Below, one piece after another: positions 30,378-39,929 of a stretch of DNA of 64,000 nt. The DNA comes from Candidatus Faecicola pullistercoris (GTDB lineage: Bacteria; Bacillota; Clostridia; Christensenellales; CAG-917). The position numbers were made by a program, and so were the translations under genes. Positions within the stretch are counted from its first letter, which is position 1. The number at the start of each line of letters is the position of its first letter. Under the pieces are notes generated by a model. That model worked only from the letters and a program-made list of their open reading frames with translations, made no database searches and was not told the DNA's origin. Where the stretch lies: contig DVNW01000024.1 of assembly GCA_018714105.1 (NCBI GenBank), positions 1 to 64,000 on the forward strand, in the 5' to 3' direction.

Positions 30378-31214
30378 TTAACATCTGGAATTTAAGGTAA
30401 GTTCCACAAGGCGGCCGTATTTGCGCGCCTTATTCACTGTTTTGGCGGTAATTACGTCGCCTTTGGGAATAATTACTTTCTTGTTGGAGTCGGTAATATC
30501 CGAAACAATCAGTCTGCCAAGCAGAAAGCGGTAGTCGCTTATCAGGCGCATCGGGGTGTGTTCGTCCTTGTAAATTTCGTCGGAATCGGTTTCGGAAAGC
30601 TCCTCGCCGTCCGGCAGGACAGGGGCAGGCCCGTCAGGCGCAATCGGAACGGACGGCGGAGCATCGGAGCTGCGCGTATTTTCCCGTTTTTGTTCGGAGC
30701 GGTGTTTTCGGGGCGCGGAGAGCAGAGATACTTTATAGTTTTCGTCGGCCGAAAAGCGCGCTTTTTTACGTTTGAACGGCTTGCATTCACATATAACGGC
30801 AAGTTCGGCCGACATCGAGGACAGGTCTTTGGGGGAGTAAACGGTATTACCCGCGGTAATATTCGTTACGCAAAAGTTTTCGTCGGTTTCGATTTCGGAA
30901 AGAAAGCCCGCGTGTTTTCCGTTGTCAAGGTATACGGGACAGAAGGGCGACGCCCTGAAAAAGGCGTCCGAATCAATCTCCTCGCAGGGCAATGCGTCGG
31001 CGGCGGAGGCGGTTACCAAACAGTCAAAACCGAAGTCCTTTACCTTTTTAAGTGGCACTGCAGCCGTAAAAGAAGGCACGCTTTCGCTTCGGAACAGAAT
31101 ATATGCCGTTTTGAAACCCGATTTTCTGATAAGGAATCCGCAGCACGTACCCAGAAATTTGCCTTCGCAAACGGCGATGATTTTTTTATTGAACAGATAT
31201 GAAAGTTTAGGCAT
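30378..31214 (-). CDS. PRC-barrel-like domain protein
   Basis: N-terminus MPKLSYLFNKKIIAVCEGKFLGTCCGFLI and C-terminal GRLIVSDITDSNKKVIIPKGDVITAKTVNKARKYGRLVELTL resemble PRC-barrel proteins. Confidence 0.5.
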   Translation of the reverse strand: MPKLSYLFNKKIIAVCEGKFLGTCCGFLIRKSGFKTAYILFRSESVPSFTAAVPLKKVKDFGFDCLVTASAADALPCEEIDSDAFFRASPFCPVYLDNGKHAGFLSEIETDENFCVTNITAGNTVYSPKDLSSMSAELAVICECKPFKRKKARFSADENYKVSLLSAPRKHRSEQKRENTRSSDAPPSVPIAPDGPAPVLPDGEELSETDSDEIYKDEHTPMRLISDYRFLLGRLIVSDITDSNKKVIIPKGDVITAKTVNKARKYGRLVELTLNSRC

Positions 31215-31647
31215 AGCGACCTCCTCGGACGTTCATATAAAAACTATATTACGGAAAGCGGAATAATATGCCCGTCCGTTTACGGCGCGGGCGGCGGAGG
31301 TCGGGATTATGCATAAAAGTATATGTACGAAAAATACATCAAAAGTAAAAAAGCGCGTTATATAATTAACGTAATATTTTGTATCGTCGCCTGCGCGAAA
31401 AAGCTGCTCAACCAGGCAAAAAAGCGGCTGAAAACAGGCAAAATCCGACAAAAAACGCGATGCGCCTGAAAATTATAAAAATTTTCCCGTATCCGCACCT
31501 GAAAAGACTTCCGAAAAGGGCTGAAAACGCAAATGCGCGCTTAAAGCGACAAAACGGAAACATATATGCTCAAAAATGTGCAAACACGACAAAAAAAACC
31601 GCTGAATCCGCTGTCATAAAGGAGGGCTGCACGGCATAATTTAGCCT

Positions 31648-31739
31648 TGTGGACAAAGGCCGGTTTGTCCCGAATAATACTTAAAAAAGGGCGTCTTATC
31701 CACATTAAGGGGCTCTTTTGGGGATAACTCTGTGGATAA
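31648..31739. promoter_or_regulatory. Cluster of four DnaA-box-like 9-mers (two perfect)
   Basis: TGTGGACAA 31648-31656 (-, 1 mismatch); TTATCCACA 31696-31704 (+, perfect); TGGGGATAA 31719-31727 (-, 1 mismatch); TGTGGATAA 31731-31739 (-, perfect). Confidence 0.65.
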
Positions 31740-31800
31740 CCGGGCATTTTTATGCAGATTTTGTATAAAATTGTAAATCAAATAAAAAGGAGCGAAAACG

Positions 31801-32556
31801 GTGAAATCGGTCGTTATCAAACTCAGAAAGAGGAGCTTGGCGGTAATTATGGCGGCAGTGCTTACGGTGTGCCTGACAACTGCCGGAATATGCGTAAAAA
31901 GAGTATGGGCTAGGCCTCTTGCCACCGTAGTGATAGACGCGGGACACGGCGGCGGCGACGGAGGCGTGGTCGGGCTGGAAACGGGGGTAACCGAAAGCGA
32001 TTTGAACTTAAAGATAGCTCTCGCGCTCAAACAGCAGTTCGAAAGCAGGCAGGTAAAGGTAATTCTTACCCGAAAGGACGGCGGCGCGCTGGCGGACGGA
32101 GCCGATTTCAAGCGCAAGGATTTCGAAGCGCGGTGCGAAATAATACGGAAAAGCGGCGCCGACGCCGTTATAAGTATTCATCAGAATTCCTTTCCCGCAC
32201 AGCGCAGCAGGCGCGGTAGTCAGGTATTTTATAACGCAGGGGATCAGAGTTCCAGACTTTTAGCGGAATACATGCAGCGGACGCTGAACGAAAACGTGAA
32301 CAAGATTCACAGCGGCCGCGGTTACGACGCGCTTGCGGGGGATTACTACATAATAAACTGCAGCGAAATTCCCTCGGTGATAGTGGAGTGCGGATTTTTA
32401 TCGAACGCGCAGGACGAAAGACTGCTGCAGTCCGAAAAATACATATCCGAGCTGGCTTTTCAGATATGTTCGGGCGCGCTCGGATATATGATAGACAAAC
32501 AGGTGATAAACTTTTCCGACAAGGTCAGCTACGGGGAGCAAAGCATAGGCGTTTGA
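31801..32556 (+). CDS. N-acetylmuramoyl-L-alanine amidase, CwlD/amidase_3 type
   Basis: VVIDAGHGGGDGGVVG, DAVISIHQNSF, SEIPSVIVECGFLSNAQDERLL. Confidence 0.9.
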   Translation: MKSVVIKLRKRSLAVIMAAVLTVCLTTAGICVKRVWARPLATVVIDAGHGGGDGGVVGLETGVTESDLNLKIALALKQQFESRQVKVILTRKDGGALADGADFKRKDFEARCEIIRKSGADAVISIHQNSFPAQRSRRGSQVFYNAGDQSSRLLAEYMQRTLNENVNKIHSGRGYDALAGDYYIINCSEIPSVIVECGFLSNAQDERLLQSEKYISELAFQICSGALGYMIDKQVINFSDKVSYGEQSIGV

Positions 32557-36442: not shown

Positions 36443-37912
36443 ATGAAAACGAAGGTATTATCGGTGGCAGCGTTGATAATAGCCTGTTTTGGGGTATTGT
36501 CGGGGTGCCTTATAAAAAGCAGAACATCGGGTTTTGAGGTAACGGGGCACGTATACGCTTACGGAGAAGGGCTTGCCGACGTCAAAATTTACGCTAACGG
36601 AGAGTTTGTTTGCGCCAGCGGAGCGGACGGCTCTTTTTCTATATCGGCGGTAACGGCGGATGCCGAGCTTACATTCAAAAAAGAAGGATATTTAATAGAC
36701 GCGGTCAAGGTAACTTCGGACGGCGAGATAACCGTAACCGCCCGCAAAAGCGTAATAGTAGAGCTGACGGCAACGGACGGCGGCACAGCGAGCGGCGGCG
36801 GACTTTACGAAAAGAACGAAATAATAACTCTGGCTGCGCAAGCCTTTCCCGACTATGTTTTCGCGGGATATTATTCGGGCGGCAGTTTGATATCGGACAA
36901 GCCCGAGTATTCTTTCGCGGCGGTTGCCGACGCGGAGATTACGGCGGTATTCGAAAAGATAAAGGTAACTGTAACAGTACAAGGCGACAACGCGGACTTC
37001 GTAACGGGCGCGGGCGAATACGGAAAAGGCGACGAAGTAATTCTTACTGTGGAAAAACGGACGGGTTACCGTTTTATCGGCTGGAAGATAAACGGCGAAA
37101 CGGTATCGACGGAGGAAACCTATTCGTTCACCGCGACCGAAAGCGTAACGGTAACGGCCGAATACAGGGAAATTCCCGTAATTACCGACCTTTCGTTCGA
37201 CGGCGACGCAATAAGCTGGCGGGGCGACTGCGACCTTTATGAGCTGTATTTCGAAGGCGCGCTTATTCTTAAAACCTCTGAAGTAAGCGTTGAAGCAAGC
37301 GAATTGTTCACGGTCAGTACGTCGGGCATCGTAGAGATAAGGGGATATCGCGGCGGCGAAAGCTCTCTTCCCTTATATCTGACGGTCGATTATAAAACGA
37401 GGTTACCCGTACCCGAGGCGGCAGGGATAACCCGAACTGCCGAGGGAATAATTTATTCGTTCGGCGCGGTAAACGCGGCGTGCGATTATACGGTATATAT
37501 CGACGGCGAGCCTTTGGCTGTCAGCGAGCACGCCGATAAAGTCGTAGACAACAAGGACAGTCTGGCGTTTAACGTAACGGATTTTCTCACCGCGGGACGC
37601 GAGCATCGGCTATGGGTGGTCGCAGTCGCAGACGGTACAAGGAGGGACTCCGTGGCGAGCGCCGAGACGTCCTTTTTGTATTACGGCAGCCTTGACCGTC
37701 CCGAAATCACGTTGCGGGACGGCATTCTGGAATGGACCGCGGTAGAAAACGCGGCCGTTTACCTACTCAGCATAAACGGCGTAACTGTGTACGAAGGAAG
37801 CGGACTTTATGCCGAAGTAGGGTTGATCGGGGGCCGTACCTATACCGTGCGTTTACAGGTGAGCGCGGAGGGATATGTCCCGTCGTATATTGAAAAATCA
37901 ATAACCGTTTAA
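36443..37912 (+). CDS. Surface lipoprotein with InlB B-repeat-like and Ig/Fn3-like segments
   Basis: Lipobox LSGC; GGTASGGGLYEKNEIITLAAQAFPDYVFAGYYSGG and GYRFIGWKINGETVSTEETYSFTATESVTVTAEY are B-repeat-like. Confidence 0.7.
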   Translation: MKTKVLSVAALIIACFGVLSGCLIKSRTSGFEVTGHVYAYGEGLADVKIYANGEFVCASGADGSFSISAVTADAELTFKKEGYLIDAVKVTSDGEITVTARKSVIVELTATDGGTASGGGLYEKNEIITLAAQAFPDYVFAGYYSGGSLISDKPEYSFAAVADAEITAVFEKIKVTVTVQGDNADFVTGAGEYGKGDEVILTVEKRTGYRFIGWKINGETVSTEETYSFTATESVTVTAEYREIPVITDLSFDGDAISWRGDCDLYELYFEGALILKTSEVSVEASELFTVSTSGIVEIRGYRGGESSLPLYLTVDYKTRLPVPEAAGITRTAEGIIYSFGAVNAACDYTVYIDGEPLAVSEHADKVVDNKDSLAFNVTDFLTAGREHRLWVVAVADGTRRDSVASAETSFLYYGSLDRPEITLRDGILEWTAVENAAVYLLSINGVTVYEGSGLYAEVGLIGGRTYTVRLQVSAEGYVPSYIEKSITV

Positions 37913-37925
37913 ATAGGGAGTGCGT

Positions 37926-39929
37926 ATGAAAAAAACAATTCTGATTATTGCGGCAATAAGCGCGGTGCTGATATGCGTGTTCGGGGCGGAAATGTATGCC
38001 TTGGCGCAGGGTCAGCCTCTAAACGTAACCGTAGTTAAGTTGCAAGGCGAAATCGAAGCCCGCTGGACGGACGTGGAAGAAGGAGACATTTACTCCGTCA
38101 AGGTCAACGGCGCGGCGGCGGGAGAGACGGTACGCGGGGTACAGCGCATGAGCCTGGAAGGACTGGTAAGCGAAGCCGGCAGATACGAAGTAGAGGTAAC
38201 CGCCTCCAAATCCGACGGCGAGGTCGTTGCCAACGAAACAATGGTCTACGAGCATTACGTCCGGTATGAAAGACCTGTAATCACGGGGGTGGATAACGGT
38301 ATTCTCAGATGGAGCGACGGCAACGAACCGGCCTGTTACACGATAGTAGTAAACGGCTTTATACTTGCCCGAAACGTAGCGGGAAAGGAATACGACGTAT
38401 CGGACACGCTTACGGGAGCTTACGATTACGAAATATGCGTGCAGGCAGAGCAGAACGGATACCGTACGCAGAGCGAGTTTTCGGCCGTGTATATATACAG
38501 TAATATCGTAACGCTGGCCGAGCCGGACAATCTGAGCGTGTACAAGAGCGGACAGAGCTACATATTGTCGTGGAGCGCGGTACCGTACGCGACGGGTTAT
38601 GAGATAAGCGTTTCCGAAACCGACGCGGCGGTTGTGTCGGCTGAAGTAGCGGGATACAGCACTACCAAAACTTTTTACGATATCAGTTCGCTGATAACCG
38701 AGGCCGCCGATTACGGGATAACGGTCAGCGCGATCGCGGACGGAAATTTCAAAGAGTCCGAAGCGGCGACAATAAAGTACAGCGTTTTTAAAAAACTCGA
38801 CGCGCCCGTCCCGACCGCAGACGGGAAAACGATAAGCTGGGAGCCTATCGAGAACGCCCGCAGCTATTCTGTGTCGGTGAACGGCAAATCTATAGCGTCC
38901 GAGCTGACGTCTGCTCAGATCGATTTATCAAGCGAACTCACGCTGCCGGGATACTATATAATAAGGGTACAGGCGGAAGGCGGCGATAACTACACGGCGT
39001 CCGACATAGGCGAAACCTGTATAACCGTTTATGAGAAAGCGCAGACTCCCTCTGTTACCGTCACGGGGAGCACGGCAAACTGGAACGACGTGCCCGCCGC
39101 GCTTAACTATACGGTAAAAGTCAACGGGGCTATTGTCAGCAACGTATATGAAGCGACGGATATTGACCTGTCGCCCTACACCGCCGGTGCGGGCAAGTAC
39201 GTTATAAGCGTAATAGCCAACGGAACGGGATATTACCTTGCGTCCGAAGAGGGTACGGCCGTTTACGAAAAATACGTCAGGCTTCAGAATCCCAACGTTT
39301 ATATCGAGGACGGCGTTATACGTTGGCAATCCGTCGCGGGTGCGAGCGGATACGTGATAGAAGCGTTGCCGTTCAAAGCGGAAACGGTTGCGGCCGAATA
39401 CGATCTTAATTCGGCGGGGCTGCCGCACGGAACGGAAGTAAGCGTATACGCCAAGGGCAGCGGATACTTTACCGACAGCGAAAGAACAACGGTAATTTAT
39501 CTTCAACCGACTTCGCAGGCCGACAGAACGGTAATAACGGACAGCGGAATCGTCGAAATAGCCGACGTCGCGCACGACGTGTACGAAATTACTGAGGGCC
39601 AAGCCGTGCTTACGGGGCTTACAGTTAATAAAAACGGCGATATTTCGGGCGATTACGCGATGAATGCCGATAAACTTTACGTTATAATACAGCGCGATCC
39701 CGCCGAAAGCGCAAACGCAATATATGCTGGCGCACTTGAAAAACGGCCCGAAGGGTGGTATATGTACGAATACGTTACGTCCGACGTAAATCCCGCGGAG
39801 CAGGAAACGGCGGGCAGGATTTACGCTTTCCAGGCGGAAGGACGCACATACTATGCGGCCGGCGCCCAAATATGGCTTCCTGCCGGAGCGGAGGGCACGT
39901 TAACCGCAATCGCCGTAATAAGTAATTGA
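37926..39929 (+). CDS. Secreted/surface protein with tandem Fn3-like repeats
   Basis: Signal-type N-terminus; repeated W-x-x-V/I-x-x-A-x-x-Y-x-V-x-VNG units. Confidence 0.7.
   Translation: MKKTILIIAAISAVLICVFGAEMYALAQGQPLNVTVVKLQGEIEARWTDVEEGDIYSVKVNGAAAGETVRGVQRMSLEGLVSEAGRYEVEVTASKSDGEVVANETMVYEHYVRYERPVITGVDNGILRWSDGNEPACYTIVVNGFILARNVAGKEYDVSDTLTGAYDYEICVQAEQNGYRTQSEFSAVYIYSNIVTLAEPDNLSVYKSGQSYILSWSAVPYATGYEISVSETDAAVVSAEVAGYSTTKTFYDISSLITEAADYGITVSAIADGNFKESEAATIKYSVFKKLDAPVPTADGKTISWEPIENARSYSVSVNGKSIASELTSAQIDLSSELTLPGYYIIRVQAEGGDNYTASDIGETCITVYEKAQTPSVTVTGSTANWNDVPAALNYTVKVNGAIVSNVYEATDIDLSPYTAGAGKYVISVIANGTGYYLASEEGTAVYEKYVRLQNPNVYIEDGVIRWQSVAGASGYVIEALPFKAETVAAEYDLNSAGLPHGTEVSVYAKGSGYFTDSERTTVIYLQPTSQADRTVITDSGIVEIADVAHDVYEITEGQAVLTGLTVNKNGDISGDYAMNADKLYVIIQRDPAESANAIYAGALEKRPEGWYMYEYVTSDVNPAEQETAGRIYAFQAEGRTYYAAGAQIWLPAGAEGTLTAIAVISN

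Follow-up and report, generated by a model that had tools for sequence, protein, structure and literature searches.

An IHF site between essential DnaA boxes defines the datA locus. A head-to-head pair of boxes is, according to reviews, functionally essential for DARS, and its spacing is identical in both Escherichia coli copies (PMC5742627). DARS1 lies upstream of uvrB, a gene reported to be under DnaA and LexA (Wurihan 2018, cited in PMC11317965), and double boxes with a gap of 2–3 bp are the best predictor of DnaA occupancy in E. coli (PMC11317965). Deletion of six DnaA-box clusters (DBCs) in Bacillus subtilis advances initiation (PMC5295017; PMC13220808); details of these clusters used below are drawn from PMC5295017, PMC13220808 and PMC4447404. 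According to a 2026 review, B. subtilis lacks both datA and DARS, and it is not known whether this species has a regulator that keeps ATP-DnaA and ADP-DnaA in balance (PMC13220808).

Here we describe a compact group of DnaA boxes in 64,000 nucleotides of DNA from Candidatus Faecicola pullistercoris, referred to as the window. Judged from its sequence, the site would be a stand-alone, origin-proximal DnaA-binding control locus outside oriC, acting by titration or on the nucleotide state of DnaA, a reading to which we assign a probability of about 0.6. It is probably a separate replication control switch, distinct from the origin.

A DnaA-box module in a long intergenic interval

The non-coding interval at 31215–31800 (586 bp) lies between ORFs at 30378–31214 (minus strand) and 31801–32556 (plus strand). 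The first of these had been called PRC-barrel-like in a preliminary description of this DNA, but it matches no Pfam or NCBIfam family, so that these libraries lend the label no support. The second encodes a CwlD-like N-acetylmuramoyl-L-alanine amidase (Amidase_3, E 1.7e-40; TIGR02883 at 161 bits, below the cut-off of 221.55) and is the downstream neighbour of the boxes, though not needed for their retention. Further along the window, two long ORFs at 36443–39926 gave no NCBIfam match; the first contains InlB-type repeats (Flg_new_2) and the second has sub-threshold Pfam matches only.

The length of the interval, its AT-rich tract and the positions and strands of its four boxes (starting at 31648, 31696, 31719 and 31731) all agree with what had been described before. 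Three of the four form a module that reads TTATCCACA-N14-TGNNGATAA-N3-TGTGGATAA on the forward strand. Box 1 (31696–31704, plus strand; TTATCCACA, perfect) keeps its position in relatives and stands head-to-head with box 2 (31719–31727, minus strand; TTATCCCCA, one mismatch), which is frequently perfect in relatives. The 14-bp spacer between them (31705–31718) is kept in length and free in sequence in the family of the window, and it holds a LexA-like operator in several other families. Box 3 (31731–31739, minus strand) is again a perfect TTATCCACA, and its 3-bp gap to box 2 makes the two a “double DnaA box.” The remaining box (31648–31656, minus strand; TTGTCCACA, one mismatch) lies outside the conserved module and its membership is doubtful.

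Among members of the window's family, the consensus tGcATTTTTATrC comes a few base pairs after the core, a TGMATA...TGAAAC...TATGCA segment comes next, and a fourth box often lies 12 bp before box 1. The window itself has the AT-rich element at 31744–31755 (GCATTTTTATGC, including the ATTTTTAT part at 31746–31753), a few base pairs past box 3, and a poor match at the position of the subsequent segment (31756–31785); the fourth box before box 1 is absent at its module. The AT-rich element probably has an accessory role, as a site of DNA bending or of complex architecture, and by its sequence the TGMATA...TATGCA segment might be a sporulation-type promoter.

The boxes are real and far above chance. 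At up to one mismatch the window contains 23 of them against 10.2 expected, a number reached by 0 of 100 shuffles, and a first-order Markov model predicts 0.28 perfect boxes per 64 kb. For exact three-box modules the same type of model predicts a count of about 1e-9 in a genome of 1.6 Mb, where two were found, and the whole genome has 18 perfect copies of TTATCCACA against 3 of the reversed word. The second exact module (G000:C26:8015–8058, G000 being the window's genome; L003 5016–5059) sits about 20 bp upstream of where a phosphoglucomutase-like gene starts and does not have the conserved AT-rich flank. A mobile repeat was considered and rejected, as there are just two copies in the genome, which have the boxes in common and differ in spacer and flanks.

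Conservation of the module in relatives

The module geometry, allowing up to two mismatches, was found in 44 of 150 relatives from several families, against 0 for a reversed-pattern control, and mostly occurs once per genome. A scan of 85,462 species genomes for the exact module returned 40 stretches, chiefly from records titled Clostridia or Christensenellaceae. Anchoring on cwlD is a better test of conservation than anchoring on the module, but the 36 genomes searched for cwlD were partly picked for carrying the module, so that the resulting figures are partly circular and give no unbiased frequency: at least one box lies upstream of all 30 cwlD orthologues (background density, 0.137 boxes per 720 bp), the head-to-head gap is 14 bp in 28 of 30 (exceptions being G018 with 13 and G004 with 4), and the gap between boxes 2 and 3 is 3 bp in 28 of 30. 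For the window's genome the script favoured the two perfect boxes and the 14-bp pair was counted by hand. Nine genomes without a strict module match (G003, G004, G007, G011, G014, G018, G020, G023, and G025) still have boxes, six of them in a head-to-head pair with no more than one mismatch per box. A pair with a 4-bp gap was rejected as a family rule, being present in only 5 of 43 genomes.

The boxes are thus strongly conserved, where the preliminary description had named a lack of conservation in relatives as the result that would speak against it. Information content is near 2 bits in the box columns and at most 0.7 in the spacer columns, a contrast that is partly built in because the aligned set was selected on box matches. 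A spacer of fixed length and free sequence points to DNA phasing rather than to an RNA loop, which bears on the idea that the inverted boxes form an RNA hairpin or terminator. Boxes 1–2 and 1–3 are indeed complementary and the folding z-score is −2.0, but there are no compensatory changes among relatives, and the uncompensated, one-sided changes in boxes 1 and 2 leave an RNA stem unsupported. A terminator search at the site found none and an Rfam search gave no match; hairpin, terminator and riboswitch were therefore rejected, and we regard an RNA element here as exceedingly improbable.

Position relative to dnaA and the origin

The site is not oriC, one of three options put forward earlier, because the GC skew flips at dnaA in G008, G027 and on contig C8 of the window's own genome and not at the module. 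Skew was computed contig by contig (C8, C21, G008:C2, and G027:C1). Contig C8 carries dnaA, dnaN and gyrB, together with recF, parB, rnpA and yidC as named from sequence, and its skew changes sign near dnaA. At a distance of about 8 kb from dnaA it also has two perfect boxes and a parS-like TGTTTCACGTGAAACA. The flip lies near 118 kb, at dnaA, on G008:C2 with the module at 59.7 kb, and near 431 kb, again at dnaA, on G027:C1 with the module at 485.7 kb. On C21, the contig of the window, skew stays positive to the left and to the right of the module, and neither a skew minimum nor adjacent dnaA and dnaN mark the site.

Linkage to dnaA is visible only on long contigs, and in most genomes, including that of the window, the two are on separate contigs. 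Where a contig is shared, in eight genomes, the module (or cwlD) is 5–112 kb from dnaA: 5 kb in G033, 14 kb in G002, G010 and G015, 54 kb in G027, 58 kb in G008, 73 kb in G007 (by the position of cwlD) and 112 kb in G019. In the window's genome the module can be no closer than about 57 kb to the candidate oriC, which is 25.6 kb from the nearer end of C8, with another 31.7 kb on C21.

The same geometry occurs at replication loci elsewhere, namely at rnpA/dnaA in Lachnospiraceae, after parB and upstream of dnaB. Its presence at oriC or beside parB in other bacteria would fit a displaced oriC subcluster or a secondary origin, which is nevertheless very unlikely here in view of the skew flips at dnaA and the positive skew on both sides of the module on C21.

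Some of these other loci are described here in their own right. The module follows parB by about 140 bp in L043 (6370–6413) and L061 (1891–1934), with a further perfect box 75 bp before the module. Three Ktedonobacter genomes have the exact module (L038, L050, and L055), that of L038 being upstream of a gene with a DnaB-helicase-like start and adjoined by more boxes. Agitococcus lubricus has six perfect DnaA boxes in about 105 bp near its dnaA region (L045 584–627), a run that sits within an MnmE-like open frame.

Relation to cwlD and sporulation

The earlier suggestion that DnaA controls the amidase gene can be widened to a DnaA operator for the cwlD-like gene, the divergent gene or both, which would tie sporulation or wall turnover to replication. 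Boxes do lie upstream of every one of the 30 cwlD orthologues, mostly 70–170 bp from the start with box 3 on the gene side, the module has one orientation to cwlD in most genomes, the sporulation-promoter-like TGMATA...TATGCA segment follows it and the spacer includes a LexA-like operator in some families; nearby matches to sigma-70-type promoters, on the other hand, are weak and near shuffled expectation. The module also persists in five genomes in which both cwlD and Spo0A, our proxy for sporulation, were undetected (G002, G010, G015, G034, and G042), an absence that is less sure in G034 and G042, which are 87% and 62% complete. The AT-rich downstream element is likewise retained there, clearly in four of the five and weakly in G034. 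In G010 and G015 the module is located between lysS (plus strand) and a 138-residue gene (minus strand) that converge on it, as they do in G002 (module at 1103–1146); these are three species of one genus and count as one event.

A further group shows the module holding its own locus while cwlD is elsewhere. In G150, G151 and G153, which are near relatives of one another (MAGs), the module is beside other genes (L058, L065, and L067), and no box, even with one mismatch allowed, was found upstream of cwlD in the 700 bp searched in G151 and G153 or the 94 bp searched in G150. G152 gave the same outcome, weakened by a short locus and an uncertain start. The module is thus not exclusive to cwlD-adjacent sites and is more than a plain cwlD operator, and its retention where cwlD is absent or elsewhere weakens amidase control, which we now consider improbable. 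A transcriptional role is nonetheless conceivable and counts against a stand-alone locus, as most modules are 70–170 bp upstream of cwlD in one orientation and have the promoter-like segment. Our literature search found no title or abstract about a link between cwlD and DnaA.

Separately, a perfect palindromic pair, TTATCCACA-N4-TGTGGATAA, was observed upstream of a spoIIGA-sigE-sigG-like operon in the window's genome (G000:C1:63747–63768; L004 5748–5769), and may connect DnaA directly to sporulation.

A LexA-like operator in the spacer of other families

At 22 module loci, many of them from near relatives, the 14-bp spacer matches the Gram-positive LexA consensus CGAACRNNYGTTYG with a score of 10–11 out of 12, and the others score at most 6; random 14-mers reach 10 at a frequency of 3.5e-4. 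A similar sequence also precedes some lexA genes in other families. In the window's family (f1, 43 genomes) only 5 genomes have a LexA above the curated cut-off, and none was found in the window's genome; the module exists independently of LexA. The link between LexA and spacer is not strict, as G078, G108 and G126 have LexA without a LexA-like spacer, and G087 has such a spacer without a LexA_DNA_bind match. The families with the LexA-like spacer, set against the window's family with no convincing LexA in most genomes and the spacer free, represent a natural experiment on the coupling of the SOS response to replication.

Comparison with known DnaA loci

An additional DnaA cluster of the DARS, datA or DBC kind is the best-fitting of the three options first proposed. 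For such a control locus we infer that DnaA would cooperatively occupy the double box (boxes 2–3) and the facing box 1, and that the resulting small complex outside oriC would alter the pool of active DnaA free to fire oriC and so affect initiation. This could happen by titration, as with the B. subtilis clusters, or by a change in the bound nucleotide, through hydrolysis as at datA or reactivation as at DARS of E. coli. The finding is in any case more interesting than a promoter site. A compact element of DARS-like topology, shared by several Clostridia families and retained where the neighbouring gene has been lost, provides concrete DNA to test.

The module could function in the manner of a DARS. 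Measured on NC_000913, the boxes of both DARS1 and DARS2 start at 0 (>), +14 (<) and +26 (<), whereas those of the module start at 0 (>), +23 (<) and +35 (<). Order and the 3-bp gap between boxes II and III are therefore shared, both E. coli loci are intergenic, and DARS1, which has a flank that stimulates it, spans about 100 bp, as does the module with its conserved flank (PMC5742627); the gap between boxes I and II, however, is 5 bp in both E. coli loci and 14 bp in the module. A true DARS homologue, in which DnaA would sit head-to-head on boxes 1–2, aided by box 3, and ADP release would regenerate ATP-DnaA, is a narrower form of our preferred explanation. The wider first gap, the mid-replichore position of the E. 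coli loci as opposed to the probably origin-proximal module and the fact that no DARS is known in B. subtilis (PMC13220808) make this form unlikely. Less likely still is a Gram-positive DARS counterpart with a head-to-head pair about one helical turn wider that would reset the nucleotide state of DnaA and be gated by LexA in the LexA-bearing families; if true, DNA damage would change replication initiation.

E. coli datA is, like the module, an intergenic DnaA-box locus, and it is origin-proximal, as the module is in the genomes where it is linked to dnaA, but it differs in box order and spacing. Promoters under DnaA control, among them B. subtilis sda and E. coli uvrB, the latter with DnaA and LexA, also have boxes upstream of a gene, and the LexA-like operator inside the module in some families is a further likeness; the module differs from these in that it is retained without the gene. 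The module is, like the B. subtilis clusters, a group of DnaA boxes outside oriC. Several of those are origin-proximal, as the module is in the eight genomes with linkage to dnaA, and one is between convergent 3′ ends (gcp-ydiF), as the module is in one genus. A point against our preferred reading is that the module has only three to four boxes, a smaller number than in most clusters of B. subtilis. B. subtilis has six DBCs outside oriC, most with more sites, whereas the module is compact, has a fixed geometry and usually occurs once per genome.
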